A stretch of DNA of 64,000 nucleotides from positions 62,001-126,000 of the forward strand of contig JAKADC010000003.1 in NCBI GenBank assembly GCA_021820845.1, in the 5' to 3' direction. The translations under genes were made by a program, and so were the position numbers. The notes under the pieces were generated by a model. The model was not told the DNA's origin, did not search any database, and worked only from the letters and a program-made list of their open reading frames with translations. This DNA is from Pseudomonadota bacterium (GTDB lineage: Bacteria; Pseudomonadota; Gammaproteobacteria; Burkholderiales; Thiobacillaceae). Below, one piece after another: positions 7,893-60,701 of this stretch (the first letter of the stretch is position 1; each line of letters opens with the position of its first letter).

Positions 7893-7931
7893 GCGTTCCG
7901 CGCGCCTGAGCGGGGAGGGGATCCGCGAACC

Positions 7932-10949: not shown

Positions 10950-11387
10950 ATGGAGTGGATGATCGTGTTGATGAGCGTGCCGGTCGCGGCCACGCTCGGC
11001 GCCGGCCTCTGGCTGACCCTGAAGCCGCGGCGCGTGTCCGCGGGGTGGCTGAAGAGCGGCCTCGCGGCCAACCTGGCGCTCTTCGGGCTGGGCGTCGCGG
11101 GGGTGATGCTGATGGGTGTGCAGGAAGTCATGGCGGCCGAAGCGACCGCGACGGCGGCGCGGGAAATCAGCCTTGGGCAGGGCCTGGCCCTGCTCGGCAT
11201 CGGGCTGCCGACCGGGCTCGCGGCGCTTGCGGCAGCGATGGCGCTGGGGCCGATCGGCTCGGCGGCGCTCGCGGTGATCGCGGAGAAGCCGGAAATGTTC
11301 GGCCGCACGCTGGTTTACATGGGCCTGGCGGAGGGGATCGCGATCTACGGCCTGGTCATGTCGATCCTCCTGCTCGGCAAGCTCTGA
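10950..11387 (+). CDS. ntpK: V/A-type ATPase c-ring subunit K
   Basis: This is the rotor-ring proteolipid, 145 residues. The C-terminal hairpin (about residues 78-145) is the typical c-subunit hairpin, with the ion-binding Glu in YMGLAEGIAIYGLVMSILLL. An N-terminal hydrophobic hairpin (MIVLMSVPVAATLGAGLWL, LALFGLGVAGVMLM) has no membrane carboxylate, so there appears to be one ion site per subunit. The residue after the Glu is Gly rather than Ser/Thr, and no Gln is seen in the facing helix. This does not look like a Na+ signature and suggests H+. AAGGAG precedes the ATG. Confidence 0.88.
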   Translation: MEWMIVLMSVPVAATLGAGLWLTLKPRRVSAGWLKSGLAANLALFGLGVAGVMLMGVQEVMAAEATATAAREISLGQGLALLGIGLPTGLAALAAAMALGPIGSAALAVIAEKPEMFGRTLVYMGLAEGIAIYGLVMSILLLGKL

Positions 11388-14324: not shown

Positions 14325-15703
14325 GGAACGTCGAATTCCGTACCGCCGCATCCGCGCAGGGCGGCCTCGTGGTCATGGCCGGGGTCGCCGGCGTGGCGGC
14401 AGGCTCGCGCGTCCAGTTGCGCGACCATGCGGGGCGGGTGCGCTCGGGGCTGGTCATTCGCAGCGCCGCAGACAACGTGGTGGTGGAGGTGTTCGAGGGC
14501 ACCGACGAGATCGATCTGGAGCGGACCTGGGTCCGCTTCCTCGGCGAGCCGTTCAGGCTGCCGGTGTCACGCGACATTCTCGGCCGCGTCTTCAACGGCT
14601 CGGGACAGCCCACCGACGGCCGGCCGCCGATCATTTCGGCCGACCGGCGCGACATCAACGGCGAGCCGCTCAATCCCTCGGCGCGGGCCTATCCGCGCGA
14701 ATTCATCCAGACCGGCATCTCGGCGATCGACGGCATGAACTCGCTGACGCGCGGCCAGAAGCTCCCGATCTTCTCGGGCGGCGGCCTGCCGCACAACCGC
14801 GTCGCCGCGCAGATCGTGCGGCAGGCCAAGCTGCTTGGCGAGGAAGCCGCCGACTTCGTGGTGGTGTTCGCGGCTTTCGGCGCCTCGCATGCCGATGCCC
14901 GCTTCTTCCAGGAAAGCTTCGAGGAAAGCGGGGTGCTGAACAAGGTCGTGATGTTCCTCAACCTCGCCGACGAGCCGGTGATCGAGCGCCTGCTGACGCC
15001 GCGCGCCGCGCTGACCGCCGCGGAATACCTGGCCTTCGATCTCGACTATCACGTGCTCGTGGTGATGACCGACATGACCGCCTACGCCGAGGCGCTGCGC
15101 GAGGTTGCGGTGCTGCGCGGCGACGTGCCGGCGCGCAAGGGCTATCCGGGCTATCTCTATTCCGATCTCGCGGAAATCTACGAGCGGGCAGGGCGCATCA
15201 AGAACCGGCGCGGCTCCATCACGCTGATTCCGGTGCTGTCGATGCCGTCCGACGACATCACCCACCCGATCCCCGACCTGACCGGCTACATCACCGAGGG
15301 TCAGATCGTGCTGGGGCGCGAATTGTCCGGCGAGGGCGTCTACCCGCCGGTCACGGTGCTGCCTTCGCTTTCGCGGCTGATGAAGGACGGCATCGGCAAG
15401 AATTTCACGCGGGAAGACCATCCCCACGTCGCAAGCCAGCTTTTCGCCAGCTATGCCAAGGCGCTCGAGGTGCGCGGACTGGCGGCGATCATCGGCGCCG
15501 AGGAATTGAGCGACGCCGACCGCCATGCGCTGGCGTTCGCCGACGCGTTCGAGCGCCGCTTCATCAACCAGGGCGAGGACGAGGACCGCAGCATCCACGA
15601 AACGCTCAATCTCGCGTGGGACCTCCTCTCCATGCTGCCGAAGGACGCGCTGACCCGGGTCAGCGAAGAGCAGCTGGCGAAATACCACAAGGGCACGGCA
15701 TGA
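14321..15703 (+). CDS. ntpB: V/A-type ATPase regulatory subunit B
   Basis: This is the non-catalytic partner of subunit A, 460 residues. It has LARG-like spacing with PIFSGGGLPHNRVAAQI where catalytic subunits have a P-loop, and the B-specific blocks GYLYSDLAEIYERAGRI and GSITLIPVLSMPSDDITHPIPDLTGYITEGQI. The ATG at 14321 overlaps the ntpA stop. Its own stop overlaps the ntpD start in the same ATGA manner. Confidence 0.96.
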   Translation: MRNVEFRTAASAQGGLVVMAGVAGVAAGSRVQLRDHAGRVRSGLVIRSAADNVVVEVFEGTDEIDLERTWVRFLGEPFRLPVSRDILGRVFNGSGQPTDGRPPIISADRRDINGEPLNPSARAYPREFIQTGISAIDGMNSLTRGQKLPIFSGGGLPHNRVAAQIVRQAKLLGEEAADFVVVFAAFGASHADARFFQESFEESGVLNKVVMFLNLADEPVIERLLTPRAALTAAEYLAFDLDYHVLVVMTDMTAYAEALREVAVLRGDVPARKGYPGYLYSDLAEIYERAGRIKNRRGSITLIPVLSMPSDDITHPIPDLTGYITEGQIVLGRELSGEGVYPPVTVLPSLSRLMKDGIGKNFTREDHPHVASQLFASYAKALEVRGLAAIIGAEELSDADRHALAFADAFERRFINQGEDEDRSIHETLNLAWDLLSMLPKDALTRVSEEQLAKYHKGTA

Positions 15704-32588: not shown

Positions 32589-32777
32589 ATGCACGATCCG
32601 ACCCGCCGTCAGGCAGAAATCCTGAGCTTCATCCAGGGGTGGATCGAGGCGATCTGCCTGCTGCCGACGCGCACCGCGCGTGCGCAGCATTCCGCTTTCA
32701 GTTGGCCCGGCGCGGAGAGACGGGTGCCGGCCAGGCAAGGCGTCCGGGAAGGGCGGGCGCCGGGAACGTCGCCATGA
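32589..32777 (+). pseudogene. lexA: Truncated lexA (LexA2-like) N-terminal remnant
   Basis: The first 25 to 30 residues, MHDPTRRQAEILSFIQGWIE and the following LLPTR, match the start of the LexA winged-helix domain (TxRQxEILxFI...PPTR). After that the similarity stops. The recognition helix, cleavage site and Ser/Lys protease are all missing, and the remaining residues look like out-of-family arginine-rich sequence. The 62-residue frame ends in an ATGA overlap with imuA. In many genomes lexA2 is the first gene of lexA2-imuA-imuB-dnaE2, which explains the position. It may now act only as a translated leader for imuA. Confidence 0.7.
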
Positions 32778-34971: not shown

Positions 34972-37900
34972 ATGCCTTCTTACGCCGAACTCCACTGCCT
35001 CTCCAACTTCACCTTCCTGCGCGGCGCGTCGCATGCGGAAGAGCTGGTCGCGCGCGCGAAGGAACTCGATTACGCGGCGCTCGCCGTCACCGACGAATGC
35101 TCGCTCGCGGGCATCGTGCGCGCGCACGTCGCGGCGAAGGAGGCGAGCCTCAAGCTGATCGTCGGCAGCGAGATCCGGCTGAGCGAAGGCCCGCGCGTCG
35201 TGCTGCTGGCGACGAGCCGGGCAGGTTACGGCAATCTGTCCGCGCTCATCACCCGGGGGCGCCGCAGCGCGACCAAGGGGCGCTACGCGCTGTCGCTCGA
35301 CGACCTCGCCGATGGCGTGCCCAGCTGCCTCGCCTTGCTGCTCGCCGATCCGCTGCCTTCATTGATGCACGCGCAGGCTATCGCCGCGCGTTTTTCAGGA
35401 CGCACCTGGCTCGCGGTGGAATTGTTCCGCGCCCCCGACGACGCCGAGCGGCTGGCGGCGGCGACCGAACTGGCACAAGCGGCGGCCCTGCCGCTCGTGG
35501 CGGCGGGAGACGTGCACATGCACGTTCCCGAGCGCCGCCCCCTGCAGGACACGCTCACCGCGATCCGGCTCGGCGCGCCGGTGTTCGACGCCGGCGACGC
35601 GCTCCATCCCAACGGCGAACGCCATTTGCGGGCGCCTGGCGATCTCGTGCAACTCTATCCGCCACAGCTTCTGGCGGCGACGCTGGAGATTGCGGCGCGT
35701 TGCCGGTTTTCGCTCGACGAGTTGCGCTATGAATACCCCGAGGAACTGGTGCCGCCCGGCGAGACCGCGATCTCGCATCTGCGCAAGCTGACGGAAGCGG
35801 GCCTCCTGCGGCGTTTTCCGAACGGCACGCCAGACAAGGTGCGCGGACAGATCGAGCATGAGCTCACGCTCATCGAGGAACTCGGATACGAGCCGTATTT
35901 CCTCACCGTGCACGACATCGTCCGCTTCGCCCGCTCGCGCGGCATCCTGTGCCAGGGGCGCGGCTCGGCGGCCAATTCGTCGGTGTGCTACGCGCTGGGG
36001 ATTACCGAGGTGAACCCGGCGTGCATGGAGATGCTGTTCGAGCGCTTCATCTCGCGCGAGCGCAATGAACCGCCTGACATCGACGTCGACTTCGAGCACG
36101 AGCGGCGCGAGGAGGTGATCCAGTACCTCTACGAAAAATACGGCCGCGACCGCGCGGCGCTCGCCGCGACGGTGATCAGCTACCGCCCGCGGAGCGCGAT
36201 GCGCGACGTCGGCAAGGCGCTCGGATTCGATCTCGAGCAGGTCGACCGGCTGGCGAAGTCGATGGCGTGGTGGGACGGCCGCAAGATCAAGCCCGAGCGC
36301 CTGATGGAGGCGGGCTTCGACCCCGCGAACAGAAAAGTGGCGCTGCTGATCCGTCTGGTCGAAGAGCTGGTCGGCTTTCCGCGCCATCTCTCGCAGCACG
36401 TCGGCGGTTTCGTCATTGCGCGCGGGCAGCTCTCGCAGCTGGTGCCGATCGAGAACGCGGCGATGCCCGAGCGCACCATCATCCAGTGGGACAAGGACGA
36501 CCTCGACGCGCTTGGCCTCCTGAAGATCGATGTGCTCGCGCTCGGCATGCTCTCGGCGATCCGCCGCGCGCTCGAACTCGTGAGCGCGGTGCGCGGGCGG
36601 CCGTTCGTGATGAGCGACGTGCCCTCGGAAGATCAGGCGGTCTACGACATGATCGGCCACGCCGACACGCTGGGCGTGTTCCAGATCGAGTCGCGCGCGC
36701 AGATGGCGATGCTGCCGCGCATGAAGCCGCGCCGCTTCTACGACCTGGTGATCGAGGTGGCGATCGTGCGCCCGGGACCGATCCAGGGCGGCATGGTGCA
36801 TCCCTACCTGCGCCGGCGCGAAGGGTCCGAGCCGGTGACCTATCCGAGCGAGGAAGTGCGCGGCGTTCTGGAAAGAACGCTCGGCGTGCCGATCTTCCAG
36901 GAGCAGGTGATGCAGCTCGCCGTGGTCGCCGCCGGCTTCACCCCCGGCGAGGCCGACAAGCTGCGCCGATCGATGGCCGCGTGGCGCAGGAAGGGCGGCC
37001 TCGAAGCATTCGAGCGCCGGCTCGTCGACGGCATGCGCGAACGCGGCTACCAGGAAGACTTCGCGCGACAGATCTTCATGCAGATCCAGGGATTCGGCGA
37101 ATACGGCTTCCCCGAGTCGCACGCCGCGAGCTTCGCGCTGCTGGTGTACGTGTCGGCGTGGCTCAAGTGCCACGAGCCGGCGGCCTTCGCCTGCGCGCTC
37201 CTGAACAGCCAGCCCATGGGCTTCTACGCGCCTGCCCAGATCGTGCAGGATGCGCGCCGCCACGGCGTCGAGGTGCGGCCGGTCGACGTGCTGGAAAGCG
37301 AATGGGCGTGCACGCTGGAGGAAGCAGGGGAGGGCAGGCACGCCCTGCGCCTGGGCCTGCGCATGGTCAACGGATTCTCGCTCGAAGGCGTCGCCCGCCT
37401 CGCTGCGGCACGCGCGCAAGGGCCATTCACGAGCGTCGAGGAACTCGCCGCACGCAGCGGCATCGACCCGCGCGACCTCAAGTGCCTTGCCGCCGCCGGC
37501 GCGTTCGCCAGGCTAGCCGGCCACCGCAGGCAGGCTTACTGGGACGTCGCCGGAATCGAGCGGGCGACGCCGCTCGCCATGGGGTACGTGGCGGAAGCGC
37601 AGCCGGCCCTGTTTCCGCTTACCGAAGGCCAGGATCTGGTCGCCGATTACGCGAGTCTCGGACTCAGCCTCGGCCGGCATCCGCTCGCCTTGCTGCGCGA
37701 CCGCCTGCGGCGCGACCGGATGGCCACCGCCGAGGAATTGCGGCGGCTTCCGCACGGGCGCCTCGCGCGCGCCGCCGGCCTCGTCCTCAACCGCCAGCGC
37801 CCCGGCACCGCGAGCGGCGTCACCTTCCTCACGCTCGAGGACGAGACCGGCCACGTCAACGTCGTCGTCTGGCGCGACCTGGCCGAGCGGCAACGGCGCG

Positions 37901-41182: not shown

Positions 41183-41479
41183 CGGACAAGGAACATGGCG
41201 CGGATGCGGACGGCGCGGCGCCGCCGACAGTCCGGGAAGGGGATAGGTGCAGGTAAGCAATAGCCGCAAGCAACACGGATCCAACAAAGAAGGAAACGGT
41301 CGCCTTACGCCATGTCGCATCCACAAACATCGCGTATGGGGCTCAAATTAGCCACTATCAAGCCAAGGATTGCGGATGCCCCGGTTTAAGAGCCAGCACG
41401 GCCACTGATGGGCGATATGCTGGAGTGCCAGAGGCTTGCTGAGCGGCGCATGATGCAGGTTTGAGATGAGGAGGGTGGA
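41183..41479. other. Intergenic stretch after the helicase gene
   Basis: I see no gene here. A minus-strand frame with a hydrophobic start (from 41330) runs into the helicase gene and looks like a shadow. A KOPS-type octamer GGGAAGGG lies at 41234-41241. The ribosome-binding GAGGAGGG of the next gene is at 41469-41476. Confidence 0.5.
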
Positions 41480-42592
41480 GTGAAAAATAAGCAGGGATTA
41501 CTTTTTGTGTTTCTGCGCATTTGCGGTTTTTTAGCAGTTGTCGCGTTGTCTGCTTTGCAGACAGCATGTAGCAACCAAGAAAGCGAAACTGCCAAGCTTA
41601 TTCAGACCGTCAATCTCGGGAAGCCACCGATGGCAGTGGCTTGGCGGCCAGATGGTAAACAATTTGCTGCTGTTGGATTTGGCAATCTAGGGGTTTGGGA
41701 TGCCGCTACCGGAAAACAAGTCCCTACACCTACCATGTGGGCGATTGAATCATCGGTTGTCTACAGTCCCGATGGCCGCCTACTGGTTTTGCACAAGGCC
41801 ATGGAAGGCCATCAGGGCATGAGTGCATTGGTGTGGCTGGATGCCAAAGATCAGCATGTAATCAGCGAATACTTTGACGAATATCCCAGTGTCATACATG
41901 GCACGGCATTCAGCCCGGATAGCCGTTTTTTGGTAGTCGGCGCGAATAAAAAGGCTGACTATGTAGCCACGGTTTTTGATACGGCAGAGAAAAAGCCTGT
42001 CGCTAAACTTGTTCCAGCGACTCCGAAAGGGTGGAGTGGTGAATCAATTAATTGCATCATTTTTAGCCCGGATGGTTCTATGGTCATCGTCGGGGGATTG
42101 AGTGGCGCCGTGAACGTCTGGTCAACCCGAGATTGGCAGATCATCAAAACCTTCAAGGCACATAAAAGCTCTATCCGCTCTATGGCGATTAGCCCGAATG
42201 GCAAGTGGTTGGCGACCGGGAGTGAGTCAGGCGGTGTACGTGGACATTACGACCCCACCACCGGGACAACAACCGAAACCAAGTTAGATGACCCCATCAA
42301 GATATGGGATACGACTACTTGGGAGCAAGTAAAGGCTTTGCCGGTACGCGACCAGCCTACCTCATCGCTGGCTTTTCTTCCTGATGGCAAACATCTGGTT
42401 TCGGCGAACGCGGACAGAATTGTGTTTTGGGACGTTCAGACAGAAAAACAAGTGGGAATCATCAAGGGTAACTTCAAAGGCGGAAGTGCGTTAAATTTTG
42501 CATTAAGTCAGGACGGTAAATATCTGGTTGTAGGGGGCATGGGGTCACTAGAAGTGCAGCTCTGGAAGATCACCGGTCAACTGAACAACTGA
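41480..42592 (+). CDS. WD40-repeat lipoprotein
   Basis: The 370-residue product begins with a signal peptide and a lipobox ending at Cys30 (LQTACSN), so it is probably membrane-anchored outside the cytoplasm. The rest is WD40-like beta-propeller repeats: AVAWRPDGKQFAAVGFGNLGVWDAATGK, GTAFSPDSRFLVVGAN, CIIFSPDGSMVIVGGLSGAVNVWSTRDWQ, SMAISPNGKWLATGSESGG and KIWDTTTWEQ. Function is unknown; such propellers bind proteins. The start is GTG with a good GAGGAGGG site. The gene is visibly AT-richer than its neighbours and lies just before dif, which suggests recent acquisition. Confidence 0.85.
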   Translation: MKNKQGLLFVFLRICGFLAVVALSALQTACSNQESETAKLIQTVNLGKPPMAVAWRPDGKQFAAVGFGNLGVWDAATGKQVPTPTMWAIESSVVYSPDGRLLVLHKAMEGHQGMSALVWLDAKDQHVISEYFDEYPSVIHGTAFSPDSRFLVVGANKKADYVATVFDTAEKKPVAKLVPATPKGWSGESINCIIFSPDGSMVIVGGLSGAVNVWSTRDWQIIKTFKAHKSSIRSMAISPNGKWLATGSESGGVRGHYDPTTGTTTETKLDDPIKIWDTTTWEQVKALPVRDQPTSSLAFLPDGKHLVSANADRIVFWDVQTEKQVGIIKGNFKGGSALNFALSQDGKYLVVGGMGSLEVQLWKITGQLNN

Positions 42593-43331
42593 CTTGCGCT
42601 TGCGGCTACGCGTATATCCATGCCCAGCGACATTGCGGGATTCCCTTGCCAAGGTCGGACATCCCGCGCCGCCCAATATCCGCAAGGGCCTTTTGCAGCG
42701 CGTTCACCGACGTCCGGCAGGCATTGCTTCTCGATATTGTACGATTCGCATAATGTATATTATGTTAAATAATATGATTGGCTGGGTCCGAGATGTACCC
42801 CGGCCGCGAATGGCGCGCGTGCGACAAAACTTGAGACGCACTCCTCTTTGAAACTCTATCGGTGCGCCACGCTTGCGGACCTCGACCCGGTCAAGCCGCA
42901 CGAGACCTCCGCGAGTCGTTCTCCGGAAAGAACGCGAGCCGACGCCACCGACTGAATGGCGCTGCGATTTTCATGAACGCGCTTTGCCCGAGCTAAAAGA
43001 TCGGCAACAGCCACTGGCACGCCGCGCAAACGCACTTGGGGTTTTTTTCTTGGCGCCGGCAGACCTCCCGGCGGACTCACGAGACGTTATGAACAAGCGT
43101 CTTTTCACGTTAAATACACGAGGTATACATTTGATCCAACGGGACTTAGCTGACGGCGTGGCATAACACCTGGCGGCACTTTGAGGTTCACGTGGCCAAG
43201 CGCAGTTTTCTGCGTCGGGCCAAGGCATTTCTTGACCTGTCTTCGCAAATAACGTCTTTATCCAATTGAATCTACGTGTTATGTGGGCGACTGAAACGCT
43301 TCGCCCGCTCCTCTACCGTCCCGGCAAGGAC
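42593..43331. other. Gene-free terminus region containing dif
   Basis: No convincing gene is present in these 739 bases. The open frames (for example 42594-42851 and 42873-43166) have no recognisable family, and the first runs through dif. The only clear element is the dif site at 42743-42770, in an AT-rich patch (about 42730-42785). A weak 8-base inverted repeat (CATAACAC at 43162, GTGTTATG at 43276) is also seen. Confidence 0.6.
42743..42770 (+). other. dif: dif, XerC/XerD chromosome-dimer resolution site
   Basis: The 28 bases read as an XerC arm GATTCGCATAA, a central TGTATA and an XerD arm TTATGTTAAAT. Compared with the E. coli dif site, the central region and XerD arm are identical and the XerC arm differs at two outer positions, so 26 of 28 bases match. 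It lies between genes, as dif sites do. KOPS octamers (GGGNAGGG) seen to its left are on the plus strand and those to its right on the minus strand, the orientation that directs FtsK toward dif. This marks the replication terminus. Confidence 0.93.
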
Positions 43332-44405
43332 TCACCCCACCAGCGCCACCGCCTTGATCTGCGCCCACACCTCGAGGCCGGGACGGAGTTGCAGTTTCGA
43401 AGCCGAGCGGCGCGTGATGCGCGCGACGAGCGGCGCGCCGTCGGCATTGAGTTTCACCAGCGCGAGCGCGGGATGGGTGTCGTCCGCCACTTGTTCGACC
43501 CGGGCCGGCAGCACGTTGAGGATGCTCGTGTCGCCGTGCGCTTCGAGGGCGAGACTGATGTCGCGAGCGAGGATGCGCACGCGCACGGCACGGCCTACGG
43601 GCAGGCCGTTGTCGCGTACCCACAGGTTGCCGCCGGGGGCCGCGACTCGCGCAAGATGCCATGCCGGGTCGATTTCCGCGATCTCCCCTTCCAGCACGAC
43701 GCCCGCGTCCTCGCCCAGGCGGATCGGCAGGTCGAGCCGCGCGAGCGTTTCCCCCAGCGGTCCCTGCGCGGCGACGCGGCCGGCATCCAGCGCGACGATG
43801 TAATCGGCCAGGCGCGCGACTTCGTCGGGTGCATGGCTGACGTAGAGGACGGGGATTTCCAGTTCGTCGTGCAGTCGCTCCAGGTAAGGCAGGATTTCCT
43901 GCTTGCGGGCGAGGTCGAGCGCCGACAGCGGCTCGTCCATCAGCAGCACGCGGGGGCTGGTGGCGAGTGCGCGGGCGATCGCGATGCGCTGTCGCTCGCC
44001 GCCCGACAGGTGCGCCGGCTTCCGTTCGAGCAGACGGGCGATTCCGAGCAGATCGATGACGCGGGCCACATCGACCCGGCGCATGGCGGGGGGCACCCGC
44101 TTCATACCGTATTCGAGGTTGCGTCGAACCGAGAGGTGCGGAAACAGATTGGCATCCTGGAACACGTAGCCGAGGGCGCGCCGATGCGTCGGCACGAAGA
44201 CGTTCGCCGCATCGTCCTGCCAGGTTTCGCCGTTCACTTCGAGGACGCCCGCCGCGCGCTCGAGGCCGGCGATCAGCCTCAGCAGCGTGGTCTTGCCGGA
44301 TCCGGATGCGCCGAACAGCGCGCTGACGCCGCGGCCCGGCAACTCCAGCTCCACGTCGAGGACAAATTCGCCGCGCTGGAGCCTGAACTGCGCGCGAATG
44401 CTCAT
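43332..44405 (-). CDS. modC: Molybdate ABC transporter ATP-binding protein ModC
   Basis: ModC energises molybdate import. The 357-residue product has Walker [11 protein letters not shown] (31-40), the signature [16 protein letters not shown] and Walker [14 protein letters not shown], then a C-terminal TOBE/Mop domain ([41 protein letters not shown]) that binds oxyanion. The start overlaps the modB stop by ATGA; a longer open frame upstream is only the modB shadow. It is the last gene of the modEABC operon. Confidence 0.95.
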
Positions 44406-45070
44406 GCCTCGCGCCTCCGCCCGAGCCAGTTGAGGCTCAGCAGCACCAGGAAGGAGAACGCCACCATGCTGCCGGCGAGCACATGGGCAGGACCGTATTC
44501 CAGGGCCTCGACCCGGTTGTAGATCGCGACCGACACGACCAGCGTCTCGCCGGGAATGTTGCCGCCCAGCATCAGCACCACCCCGAATTCGCCGACGGTG
44601 TGCGCGAAGGCGAGCACGATCGCGGTCAGGAAGCCCGGCCGCGCGAGCGGCACGGCGACGCTGAAGAAACGATCGAGGAAGCCGGCGCGCAGCGTGGCGG
44701 CCGCTTCCAGCGGGCGCGTGCCGACGGCCTCGAAGGCGTTCTGGATCGGCTGCACCGCGAACGGCAGCGAGAACAGCACGGAGCCGACGACGATCCCCCA
44801 GAACGTGAACGGCAGCCGGCCGACGCCGAGCGATTCGGTCAGATGCCCGATCGGTCCGTGCGGTCCCATCCCGATCAGTAGATAGAAGCCCAGCACCGTG
44901 GGCGGGAGTACCAGCGGCAGGTTGACCAGCGCGCCCACCGGTGCTTTCCAGGCCGAGCGCGTATGCGCCAGCCACCACGCGAGCGGCGTGGCGATGACGA
45001 GCAGGATCGCGGTGGTGACCGCGGCCAGCCTGAGCGTAAGCCAGATGGCCAGGACATCTTCGGGACTCAT
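44402..45070 (-). CDS. modB: Molybdate ABC transporter permease ModB
   Basis: ModB forms the inner-membrane channel for molybdate. The 222-residue product has about five to six helices and the ABC-permease EAA loop, [49 protein letters not shown]. The [15 protein letters not shown] segment is typical of ModB. It is followed by modC with a 4-base overlap. Confidence 0.95.
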
Positions 45071-45083
45071 GCGCTTCCTCGCA

Positions 45084-45848
45084 TCAGGGCAGACCGTAGC
45101 CGAAGCGCCTGATCACCCTGACGGCCTTGGCGCTCTTCAGATATTTCATGAAGGCGACGGCGGCGGCCTGGTCCTGCGGCCGCGCCAGCAGGACGGCGTC
45201 CTGGCGGATCGGCGCGTAGAGGGTCTGCGGCACGACCCAGACGGAGCCGCCTACCGGCTTGCCGTCCCGAAACGTCTGCGACATCGCGACGAAGGCGAGG
45301 TCGGCAGCACCGCTGTCGGCGAACTGCAGCGTCTGGCTGATGTTTTCGCCCATGACGATGCGGCCTTGCACGCGGTTCCACAGACCCAGCTTTTGCAGGG
45401 TTTCCTGCGCCGCGGCCCCGTACGGCGCGAGCCTGGGGTTGGCGATGGCGAGCTTGCCGAATGACCCGTTCAGCACCTCGCCCCTGGCGTCGACCGTGCC
45501 GGGCGCCCTGCTCCACAGCACCAGCTTGCCGACCGCGTAGGTGAAGCGGCTCGGTCCCTGGGCCAGCCCTTCCGCAGCCATCCTCGCCGGCGTGGCGTCG
45601 TCGGCCGCCAGCAGCACGTCGTAGGGCGCGCCATTCCTGATCTGCGCGTAGAACTTGCCGGTCGCGCCATAGCTCGCCTGCACCGTGTGGCCGGTGTCGG
45701 CCTGGAACAGCGCAGCGATCTCCTTCAGCGGCGCGGTGAAGTTGGCAGCGACGGCGACGCGCACCTCGCCGGCGTCGGCGCGCAGGGCGCACAGGCCGAG
45801 GGCGGCGGCGAGAACGATACGGGGAAGCATCATGCGGCTCGCTTTCAC
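45084..45848 (-). CDS. modA: Molybdate-binding periplasmic protein ModA
   Basis: ModA captures molybdate or tungstate in the periplasm. The precursor has a signal peptide ([22 protein letters not shown]) and the ModA fold: [63 protein letters not shown], plus a later [27 protein letters not shown]. The start is either a GTG at 45848, whose GTGA overlaps the modE stop, or ATGs at 45833 and 45830. The GTG is annotated because of the coupling; the mature protein is the same. Confidence 0.92.
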
Positions 45849-46639
45849 GGGGCGACGGCGAGGATGATGTGCGAGGCCTTGATCAGGGCGCAGGCGCGCG
45901 CGCCGACCGCGAGGCCGAGGGTGCGAACGCTGTCGTTCGTGACGATCGACGTCACGAGCTTGCCGCCCGGCAGTTCGAGCACCACCTCGGCGTTCACCGC
46001 GCCTTCCTGACAGCGCACGACGGTTCCGCACAAACGGTTGCGTGCGCTGGTCCTGAGATTGTCCTCGGTGGTGAGGATCACCCACGGCGCCTTGACGAGC
46101 GCATAGGCCTCGACCCCGGGGACAAGGTCGAGGTGATCGACGCTGTCGTTGGTGATGATGGCGACGAGCGCGTCGCCGCCGCCGATGTCGAGGATCACCT
46201 CGGCGTTGACGGCGCCCTTCTTCACCGACGTCACGCTGCCAAGGAACTGGTTGCGCGCGCTGGTCTGCATGTCGAACCTCCTGATCACGCGGTAATACTG
46301 CTCAAAATCGCCCGTCACCTCGCCGAGCCGGGCGAGCACGCGCTGGCGCTCCTGTTCCAGCGCCTTGTACGCGGCGACGACGCGCCGGCCATAGTCGGTG
46401 AGGCGCGTGCCTCCTCCGCGCGACCCGCCCGCCTGGCGCGCCACAAGGGGGCGTTCGGAAAGGTTGTTCATCGCCTCCACCGCTTGCCATGCCGCCTTGT
46501 AGCTCATGCCCATCGCCTGGGCCGCGGCCGAGATCGAGCCGCTGGCGTCGATGCGCGCCAGCAGGTCGAGATGGTCCCACCGGCGCCCCCGCGGGACGGC
46601 GAACGGCAGGGGCTTCGAGGGTTCGAGGGCAGGCTTCAT
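45845..46639 (-). CDS. modE: Molybdate-responsive regulator ModE
   Basis: ModE represses the molybdate transporter when molybdate is bound and can activate molybdoenzyme genes. The 264-residue product has an N-terminal LysR-like winged helix (DHLDLLARIDASGSISAAAQAMGMSYKAAWQAVEAMNN) and two Mop/TOBE domains with the repeated TSARNxxxGxVxxxxxGAVNAEVxLxxxGG pattern. It is the first gene of the operon, so it probably autoregulates through the palindrome upstream. The modA start overlaps its stop. Confidence 0.95.
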   Translation of the reverse strand: MKPALEPSKPLPFAVPRGRRWDHLDLLARIDASGSISAAAQAMGMSYKAAWQAVEAMNNLSERPLVARQAGGSRGGGTRLTDYGRRVVAAYKALEQERQRVLARLGEVTGDFEQYYRVIRRFDMQTSARNQFLGSVTSVKKGAVNAEVILDIGGGDALVAIITNDSVDHLDLVPGVEAYALVKAPWVILTTEDNLRTSARNRLCGTVVRCQEGAVNAEVVLELPGGKLVTSIVTNDSVRTLGLAVGARACALIKASHIILAVAP

Positions 46640-47147: not shown

Positions 47148-48575
47148 ATGAAGCGCTGGCTCCCTGCCCTTTACCTGGCAATGGCCGGCTGCGCCCAGTT
47201 GCCGCAGGACCTGCCGGCGCGTCCGGCGATGAAGACACCTCAAGTGGCTGCCGCGATCGCCTCGTCGACGCATCAGGCGACGCGCGACGTCGACGCGCAT
47301 CCCGTGGCCGGGCCCTGGTGGCGCGCATTCGGCGTGGCCGAACTCGATCGCCTGATCGAGACGGCGCTGAAGGATGCCCCCGACCTCGACGCCGCCCGGG
47401 CGCGCGTGCGCGTGGCCGGCGAGGCCGAGCGTCTGGCGCGCCTGAACGGACAGGTGCAGTACGCAACCGACGCCTCCATCGTCCGCGAGCGCCTGAGCAA
47501 GAACGGGCTGTTCCCCCCGCCGATCGGCGGCAGCACCTTCACGCAGACCGAGATCACCCAGGAGCTTTCCTATGCCCTCGACTGGTGGGGCCGAAACCGG
47601 TCGCTCGTGCGGGCCGCGGGCAACGAGCGGCAGGCTGCGAACGACGAGCTCGCGGCGGTGCGTCTTGCCGTGGCCGCGGCCGTCGCCGATGCCTATTTCG
47701 CTGGCGCGGATGTCGAGGCGCGGCTGGAAATCGCCCGCGCCCTGAGGGAAGACCACCGCAAGGAATACGATCTGCTCAAGGCGCGCCACGACCTCGGCCT
47801 CGATTCGGTTCAGCCGGTGATCGACGCCCGCAAGCGGCTGGACGAGGACGAAGACCGGATCGGGGGACTGGAATATCTCGCGCGCTCGCTGCGCTATCGG
47901 CTGAGCGCGCTGACCGGCGCCGACCCGGACCACGCCGCGGATCTGCCCGCCCCCCGGCTTGCCGCCCGCCCGCCTTCCCTGCCCGGCCGTCTTCCGCTGG
48001 ACTGGCTGGCCCGCCGTCCCGACGTCGCCGCGCTGCGCAGCCGGGTGGATGCGGCCGCCGATCGGAGCGCCGCCGCGAAAGCGGACTTCTATCCCAATCT
48101 CGACCTGCGCATGATGGTCGGCCTCGACACGCTCGACCTCGGCAAGCTGCTCCAGGCCGGCAGCCTCACGGCGTCGATCGGGCCGGCCCTGCATCTGCCG
48201 ATATTCAACGGCGGCACGCTCAGGGCCAAACTGGGCATGCGCGAAGCGGATTACGCGGCGGCGGTCGCGGCCTATAACCGCACGGTTCTCGACGCCGCGC
48301 GCCAGGCCGCCGACGCCTATGCCCTGATCGCAAGCCTGGACCTGCGCGGCGAGGCGCAGCGGCAGGCGCTGCAGAAAACCGAGCAGACCCGTGACCTGGC
48401 GGAACAGCGCCGGACGCTCGGACTGGCCAGCCCGCTGGACGCGCTCGAAGCAGACAGCGCCGTCCTCGGCGAACGCATGAACGACATCGAGATCCAGGCC
48501 GCCCGCCTGCGCGCCCGAGTGGCGCTGTTCAAGGCACTCGGCGGCGACGCCCCTCTCAAGGACCCCGCACCATGA
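47148..48575 (+). CDS. Outer-membrane efflux lipoprotein (NodT/OprM family)
   Basis: This is the TolC-like exit duct of the tripartite pump encoded with the two following genes. The 475-residue product has a lipobox ending at Cys15 (LAMAGCAQ) and the two OEP repeats, with typical motifs WWRAFGVAELDRLIETALKDAPDLDAARARV, LSYALDWWGRNRS and PDVAALRSRVDAAADRSAAAKADFYPNLDLR. The frame is open further upstream, but the lipoprotein signal fixes the start. Its stop overlaps the emrA start (ATGA). Confidence 0.92.
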   Translation: MKRWLPALYLAMAGCAQLPQDLPARPAMKTPQVAAAIASSTHQATRDVDAHPVAGPWWRAFGVAELDRLIETALKDAPDLDAARARVRVAGEAERLARLNGQVQYATDASIVRERLSKNGLFPPPIGGSTFTQTEITQELSYALDWWGRNRSLVRAAGNERQAANDELAAVRLAVAAAVADAYFAGADVEARLEIARALREDHRKEYDLLKARHDLGLDSVQPVIDARKRLDEDEDRIGGLEYLARSLRYRLSALTGADPDHAADLPAPRLAARPPSLPGRLPLDWLARRPDVAALRSRVDAAADRSAAAKADFYPNLDLRMMVGLDTLDLGKLLQAGSLTASIGPALHLPIFNGGTLRAKLGMREADYAAAVAAYNRTVLDAARQAADAYALIASLDLRGEAQRQALQKTEQTRDLAEQRRTLGLASPLDALEADSAVLGERMNDIEIQAARLRARVALFKALGGDAPLKDPAP

Positions 48576-57956: not shown

Positions 57957-58160
57957 ATGAGCACGTCATCCCTTCTCTGGGGCCTGCTTTTCGGCTCGAT
58001 CGGACTCGGCTTCTTCCTGTACGGCAAGAAACAGCAGGCCTTCGTCCCCCTCCTCAGCGGCCTGGCGCTCATGATCTTTCCCTATTTCGTGTCGAGCACG
58101 GCCCTGCTGGTCACGATCGGAATCGCGCTCACCGCCCTCCCCTATTTCTTCAGGATCTGA
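57957..58160 (+). CDS. Small two- or three-helix membrane protein
   Basis: The 67-residue product is almost wholly hydrophobic: SLLWGLLFGSIGLGFFLYGKKQQAFVPLLSGLALMIFPYFVSSTALLVTIGIALTALPYFF. AAGGAG lies just before the ATG. Small proteins of this pattern (YGKKQ turn, then PYF) occur widely in proteobacteria, often annotated as amino-acid transport proteins without experimental support. Function is unknown. Confidence 0.75.
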   Translation: MSTSSLLWGLLFGSIGLGFFLYGKKQQAFVPLLSGLALMIFPYFVSSTALLVTIGIALTALPYFFRI

Positions 58161-59077: not shown

Positions 59078-59168
59078 CTTCGTTTCTCCGTTGTCACGTC
59101 GCCCTGCCCTGCCGTGACCAAAAGCCCTCGGCTCGAGTTCCGTCCCACGCTTCGCCACGACGTCCCGA

Positions 59169-60113: not shown

Positions 60114-60701
60114 ATGCCAGCAAATCTGCGTGCAATTCAAGCCGACATCACGACGCTCCAGGTCGACGCCATCGTCAACGCCGCCAATTCCTCGCTGCTC
60201 GGCGGCGGGGGCGTCGACGGCGCGATCCATCGTACGGCGGGGCCCGCCTTGCTGGAAGCCTGCCGGCGGCTCGGCGGCTGCCCGACCGGCGAGGCCAGGA
60301 TCACCGAAGGCTATCGCCTCCCTGCCCGCTTCGTGATCCACGCCGTCGGCCCCGTTTGGCGCGGCGGAAACCATGGCGAACCCGCGCTGCTGGCGTCGTG
60401 CTATCGCAGCGCGATCAGCCTCGCCGGCCAGCACGGCGTGCACACACTGGCGTTCCCCGCCATCAGCACGGGGGCCTACGGCTATCCGTTCGAGGCCGCC
60501 GCCCGCGTTGCCATTGCCGCCGTCCGTGACGCGATCCGCGTTTCGCCCGCCATCCGCGAAGTCGTCTTCTGCTGCCATTCTGCCGACGCGCTGGCGATCT
60601 ATGAAAAACAGCTCGGCGAGTGCGATCAGGGTGACCCTCGCGCTCGCAGGGATAAGGCGCGTGCGGGGAGAGGCTCGGCTTTGCCGCCCGATGCAAACTA
60701 G
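60114..60701 (+). CDS. Macrodomain protein (O-acetyl-ADP-ribose deacetylase-like)
   Basis: Macrodomains bind ADP-ribose and often hydrolyse O-acetyl-ADP-ribose or remove ADP-ribose from proteins. The 195-residue product has all YmdB-type motifs: IQADITTLQVDAIVNAANSSLLGGGGVDGAIHRTAGPALLEACRRLGGCPTGEARITEGYRLPARFVIHAVGP and TLAFPAISTGAYGYPFEAAA. The catalytic Asn, Asp and Gly-rich loop are intact. The C-terminal 25 residues are arginine-rich and not conserved. Confidence 0.93.
   Translation: MPANLRAIQADITTLQVDAIVNAANSSLLGGGGVDGAIHRTAGPALLEACRRLGGCPTGEARITEGYRLPARFVIHAVGPVWRGGNHGEPALLASCYRSAISLAGQHGVHTLAFPAISTGAYGYPFEAAARVAIAAVRDAIRVSPAIREVVFCCHSADALAIYEKQLGECDQGDPRARRDKARAGRGSALPPDAN

Follow-up and report, generated by a model that had tools for sequence, protein, structure and literature searches.

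The dif site of a Thiobacillus-like betaproteobacterium: FtsK/KOPS/XerCD chromosome dimer resolution and the neighbourhood of the site

In Escherichia coli, KOPS serve as loading sites for FtsK, which then travels to dif. At dif it encounters bound XerCD, and XerD is activated by the FtsK gamma domain (PMC5357621). The dif sequences of Pseudomonas aeruginosa PAO1 and of Thiobacillus denitrificans have both been tabulated (PMC2731167, Table 1). The site described here is of this known kind, and the dif of the genus was already tabulated in 2009.

The window, which is the whole stretch of 64,000 nucleotides that was analysed, corresponds to C1:62001-126000 on a contig of 355,629 bases, and its dif is at C1:104743. 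This site is, nearly certainly, the dif at which a Thiobacillus-like betaproteobacterium resolves chromosome dimers, served by FtsK, KOPS and XerCD. The site is present in a single copy, KOPS are polarised toward it and switch at it, and the genome has xerC, xerD and the gamma domain of ftsK.

Sequence of dif and the Xer machinery

The sequence GATTCGCATAATGTATATTATGTTAAAT, at positions 42743-42770 of the window, has the same base as E. coli dif at 26 of 28 positions. The architecture is that of dif: 28 bp composed of two 11-bp arms and a 6-bp centre, with a conserved XerD arm. The XerC arm, GATTCGCATAA (42743..42753, plus strand), matches E. coli at 9 of 11 bases and is identical to that of P. 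aeruginosa PAO1. The central hexamer, TGTATA (42754..42759, plus strand), and the XerD arm, TTATGTTAAAT (42760..42770, plus strand), match E. coli dif at 6/6 and 11/11 bases. The only mismatches, at positions 2 and 4, fall within the XerC arm. The same agreement in the three parts of the site had been given in the initial annotation, and the base-by-base comparison confirmed it.

There is one copy of dif in the genome, a 99.98% complete draft of 2,849,024 bases in 24 contigs. The XerD arm, with one mismatch or less, is found at a single place on the contig. A second dif was sought in the whole draft genome with the XerD half alone, allowing up to three mismatches, and nothing else convincing was found. 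A better dif elsewhere on the same chromosome, which the initial annotation had named as an observation that would speak against its reading, is thus absent from the draft genome, as is any second dif. A match to dif by chance is not a credible explanation. In an independent-base estimate from the base composition, only ~2e-9 matches with two mismatches or less are expected per genome, and the runner-up on the contig has 10 mismatches. A dif-like site is also observed in 40 of 60 relatives, including 27 of 35 congeners, nearly always as one per genome, and the single copy is kept in most of the genus. The dif of the window fixes the dimer-resolution terminus of the genome to the base.

The genes for both recombinases were found on other contigs. 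The XerD gene on C11 scores 386.7 bits against an equivalog cut-off of 329.6, and the XerC gene on C14 scores 355.4 bits against a cut-off of 335.15. The gamma domain of FtsK is encoded on the contig of dif (C1:295704-295886, 95.4 bits). It aligns at full length with the solved FtsK gamma domains 2j5o, 2ve8, and 2j5p, including the GYNRAARMIE stretch, in which YNRAAR was aligned to 2j5o. The genome therefore encodes an FtsK with a gamma domain predicted from its sequence to read KOPS.

By analogy with the E. coli system, binding, activation, and recombination are likely to proceed at the dif of the window as follows. An odd number of crossovers would leave the sister chromosomes fused. Hexameric FtsK at the septum would load on KOPS (GGGNAGGG), and the polarity of KOPS would steer it along both arms of the chromosome to dif. 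There, it would reach XerC and XerD on the two 11-bp arms of the site. The FtsK gamma domain would activate XerD, which would start the exchange in the 6-bp centre, and XerC would complete it.

KOPS polarity and GC skew around dif

Eleven KOPS were observed in the window, and all of them point toward dif. The six on the left are on the plus strand: GGGGAGGG at 7912..7919 and 37327..37334, GGGCAGGG at 11175..11182 and 15186..15193, and GGGAAGGG at 32746..32753 and 41234..41241, the last being the closest on this side at 1.5 kb from dif. The five on the right are on the minus strand: GGGCAGGG at 47162..47169 (the closest on this side, 4.4 kb from dif), 47977..47984, 59102..59109, and 60320..60327, and GGGGAGGG at 58135..58142. 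The initial annotation had counted eight KOPS and none in the opposite orientation. The orientation was right, but the count was short by those at 11175, 15186, and 58135. The number of KOPS in the window shows no excess over chance (11 against 9.15 expected), so only their orientation is informative. With a free choice of direction, the probability of this polarity is 2 x 0.5^11 = 0.001; it rises to 0.023 when comparable G-rich octamers, with their own strand bias, are taken as the background.

The polarity extends over the contig. To the left of dif, 17 KOPS are on the plus strand and two on the minus strand; to the right, five are on the plus strand and 41 on the minus (Fisher P = 2e-9). 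In total, 58 of 65 (89%) point toward dif and seven point away, in agreement with the FtsK-loading polarity around dif that had been proposed from the window. The best single switch point falls between C1:103234 and C1:109162, a 5.9-kb interval that brackets dif, and the switch near 42.75 kb on which that proposal depended is thus present.

One may consider that this polarity is a general G excess of the leading strand and has no bearing on FtsK. Indeed, octamers other than KOPS that contain six G and one A point to dif in 71% of cases. This explanation is nevertheless very unlikely, as GGGNAGGG exceeds this G-rich background significantly (58/65 against 71%, P = 0.0004). When the one-gap octamers with at least 30 occurrences were ranked by their polarity about dif, with no motif preselected, GGGNAGGG was the most polarised of 42,322. 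The same pattern is seen in the finished congener G011, where 60 of 69 KOPS (87%) within 200 kb on each side of dif point toward it, the switch falls inside 2.4 kb that hold dif, and only one of 44,800 octamers ranks above GGGNAGGG. These results confirm GGGNAGGG as the KOPS of the genus without the motif being chosen beforehand.

The GC skew, computed over the dif-bearing contig (355.6 kb of the 2.85-Mb genome), is +0.026 to the left of dif and -0.026 to the right. The cumulative skew peaks at C1:78429, 26 kb to the left of dif, and is flat from there to dif. Of the skew switch predicted in the initial annotation, the sign change across dif was therefore found on the contig, whereas the cumulative peak lies 26 kb to the left. 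Such distances have been reported: the skew shift point is 9.3 kb from dif in T. denitrificans (PMC2731167), and the published distance between dif and the shift point is 15 kb in PAO1, where the end of replication was measured 682 kb from the skew switch (PMC6199493). In a 400-kb stretch of G011, the cumulative skew shifts at 1,440,335, and dif is at 1,430,770.

The initial annotation had placed the window at the replication terminus. The presence of dif and the polarity of KOPS uphold this in the sense of a terminus of dimer resolution and segregation. With the skew peak 26 kb away, "dimer-resolution/segregation terminus" is a safer term than "replication termination point". It is likely that replication also ends at dif here. 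The dif of the window is also that of P. aeruginosa PAO1-UW, in which replication was shown to end far from dif (PMC6199493). The genome of the window is in 24 contigs, but in two finished congeners, dif is located roughly opposite dnaA. In G011, dnaA is at 179 and dif at 1,430,770 of 2,909,809 (49%), and in G024, dnaA is at 113 and dif at 1,418,591 of 3,010,981 (47%). Together, dif and KOPS mark the site of dimer resolution and the end of segregation.

Neighbourhood of dif in the window and in congeners

The dif of the window is non-coding and AT-rich relative to the genome, and the GC-skew peak is within 26 kb of it on a genome of 2.85 Mb. It is contained in a stretch of 739 bp (42593..43331) where no convincing gene was recognised and where the G+C content is 0.56 against ~0.66 for the genome. 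An open reading frame of 97 amino acids is seen in this stretch at 42873-43166. Directly to the left is a WD40-repeat lipoprotein-like gene (41480-42592, plus strand). Its G+C content is low (0.50 against ~0.66), and no boundary of an element was found beside it to the left of dif. To the right is a modC-like gene (about 43332-44402, minus strand). It belongs to a modCBAE-like cluster at 43332-46639, between dif and tolC-emrA-emrB-like genes.

Conservation of the dif flanks does not extend across the genus. On the right, the window, G005, and G016 have ~5.6 kb in common, on the tolC-emrA-emrB side; in the window, the modCBAE cluster separates dif from those genes, and in G005 and G016 the tolC-emrA-emrB-like genes begin ~2 kb from dif. 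None of the other congeners examined has a flank that matches the window. The neighbourhood of dif thus changes from species to species.

Some congeners have ICE-like blocks at dif. Seven of them (G008, G009, G013, G015, G029, G030, and G032) carry a conserved block whose end coincides exactly with dif, on the XerC side. The XerC arm of these is altered (TATGCACATAA), and the flank opposite the block differs in each. A related block is at dif in G003 and G016. The right flank of G016 is that of G005 (93% over 10 kb) but their left flanks are different, indicating that G005 represents the site without that block. The blocks at dif (loci L061, L062, L065, L066, L095, L072, and L073) encode a MobH relaxase, a TraD coupling protein of the TOL/SXT type, and a TIGR03747-like membrane protein; some also encode Jet (Wadjet). 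In G004, G008, G009, G013, G016, and G026, among others, there is a further site at which the XerC arm is intact and the XerD side is changed (TTCGCATAATGTATATTAGC), and a similar one, the ACC variant TTCGCATAATGTATATTACC, is present in G029. These second sites (L266, L271-L277, L279, and L291) are candidates for the other end of the block, for which such a sequence would be expected. The two ends of the block are on separate contigs in the drafts of G016 and G029. The XerC-arm variants TATGCACATAA, CGTGGAA, and CGTGTAA accompany inserted blocks (L035, L036, L040-L044, L046, and L048). The element is therefore the apparent source of the XerC half of dif in block-bearing species.

Very small elements of ~1.5-1.9 kb were observed on the XerC side of dif in three congeners: two in tandem in G011 (L057:6426-10026), and others in G002 (L060:8496-10026) and G034 (L063:8381-10026). 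In the sites that bound them, the XerC arm is intact and the XerD arm is degenerate. These elements encode a DUF3653 helix-turn-helix protein, which showed no match to named phages, and no recombinase gene was recognised in them. Both the blocks and the small elements resemble the known IMEX class; the likeness concerns their organisation at dif, and their mobility is putative. Across the genus, dif repeatedly serves as a landing site, both for conjugative-type blocks and for elements of very small size. The 24-base core of the window dif is also found in at least 120 viral contigs, many of them 5-15 kb long (L198-L205 among them).

In the window, no inserted element was recognised at dif. The sequence from the helicase gene to dif (41183-42742), which is of the size of the small elements in congeners, was considered as a candidate and rejected, as it has neither a DUF3653 gene nor a left half-site.

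A short dyad is found beside the XerC arm in the genus. TTGC is located at exactly -19 in 23 of 32 XerC-side flanks, and at any other offset in three or fewer. It is the right half of the dyad GGCA-N5-TGCC at -27..-15, that is, 15-27 bases outside the XerC arm. The flanks (loci L264-L293) were fetched by a pattern that includes TTGC, with three mismatches allowed, which favours at least one matching base of the four; the count for the right half is thus partly inflated, while the left half of the dyad is not affected. The two halves form 3.1 of 4 pairs on average; other positions and loop lengths give a background of 1.0 (sd 0.26). The full dyad is present in 8 of 17 distinct flanks, about half, compared with 0.06 in shuffled sequences, and in two flanks an A-T pair takes the place of a C-G pair. 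The dyad adjoins the small elements, but is also seen in flanks without their DUF3653 gene. In 26 flanks from an exact-match scan, mostly of other genera, the dyad is absent at that offset.

The window has a near-match, CGGCAGGCATTGC (42715-42727, plus strand), in which three of the four pairs are Watson-Crick pairs and the fourth is G-T. On the plus strand of the window, CGGCANNNNTTGC occurs only here, at the exact conserved offset. The short dyad near dif persists while the neighbouring genes change. One possibility, a rather doubtful one, is that the functional dif is longer than 28 bases, and that the dyad ~21 bp outside the XerC arm binds a putative accessory protein, of the host or of the elements, which would steer Xer recombination; the window would then carry one version of it. 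With equal plausibility, the dyad may be a worn remnant of the ends of elements formerly at dif. The dyad and the small elements of relatives are of modest interest, while the site itself is expected.

Elements of this kind, with degenerate second sites, are found at dif in congeners, and the XerC-side flank of the window has the dyad motif that is also found at the ends of small elements. On this basis, the site could be one that resembles dif and at which a Xer-dependent integrated element (IMEX) attaches, while the true dif of the chromosome would be located elsewhere. An IMEX is expected to be bounded by a partly degenerate second dif, and half-site searches of the genome and the contig revealed no such site. 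The site is the sole match to the XerD arm on the contig within one mismatch and the sole real match in the genome, both of its arms are canonical, and the polarity of KOPS switches exactly at it. An attachment site of this kind is thus extremely unlikely, and the site is best regarded as the chromosomal dif.

Comparison with known dif systems

The dif of E. coli K-12 and that of the window are alike in the centre, the XerD arm, and nine of 11 bases of the XerC arm; they differ at positions 2 and 4 of the XerC arm. The dif of P. aeruginosa PAO1 is closer, being identical to that of the window at 28/28 bases, although its host belongs to another class of Proteobacteria and the flanks are unrelated. 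The exact 28-mer is present in 27 named genome records, mostly of Pseudomonas (including PA7), and two are of Thiobacillus or Thiobacillaceae.

Compared with the IMEX class, the dif of the window bears no such element. The elements at dif in congeners are like IMEX in having a good dif at one end and a degenerate dif at the other. They differ in content: the blocks have the MobH relaxase, the TraD of the TOL/SXT type, and Jet (Wadjet), and the small elements are 1.5-1.9 kb long with a DUF3653 protein.

The dif of T. denitrificans is from the same genus group. It has the same XerD arm and centre as the window and is likewise a single copy. It starts with AC, in contrast to GA in the window, and two small elements are located on its XerC side.
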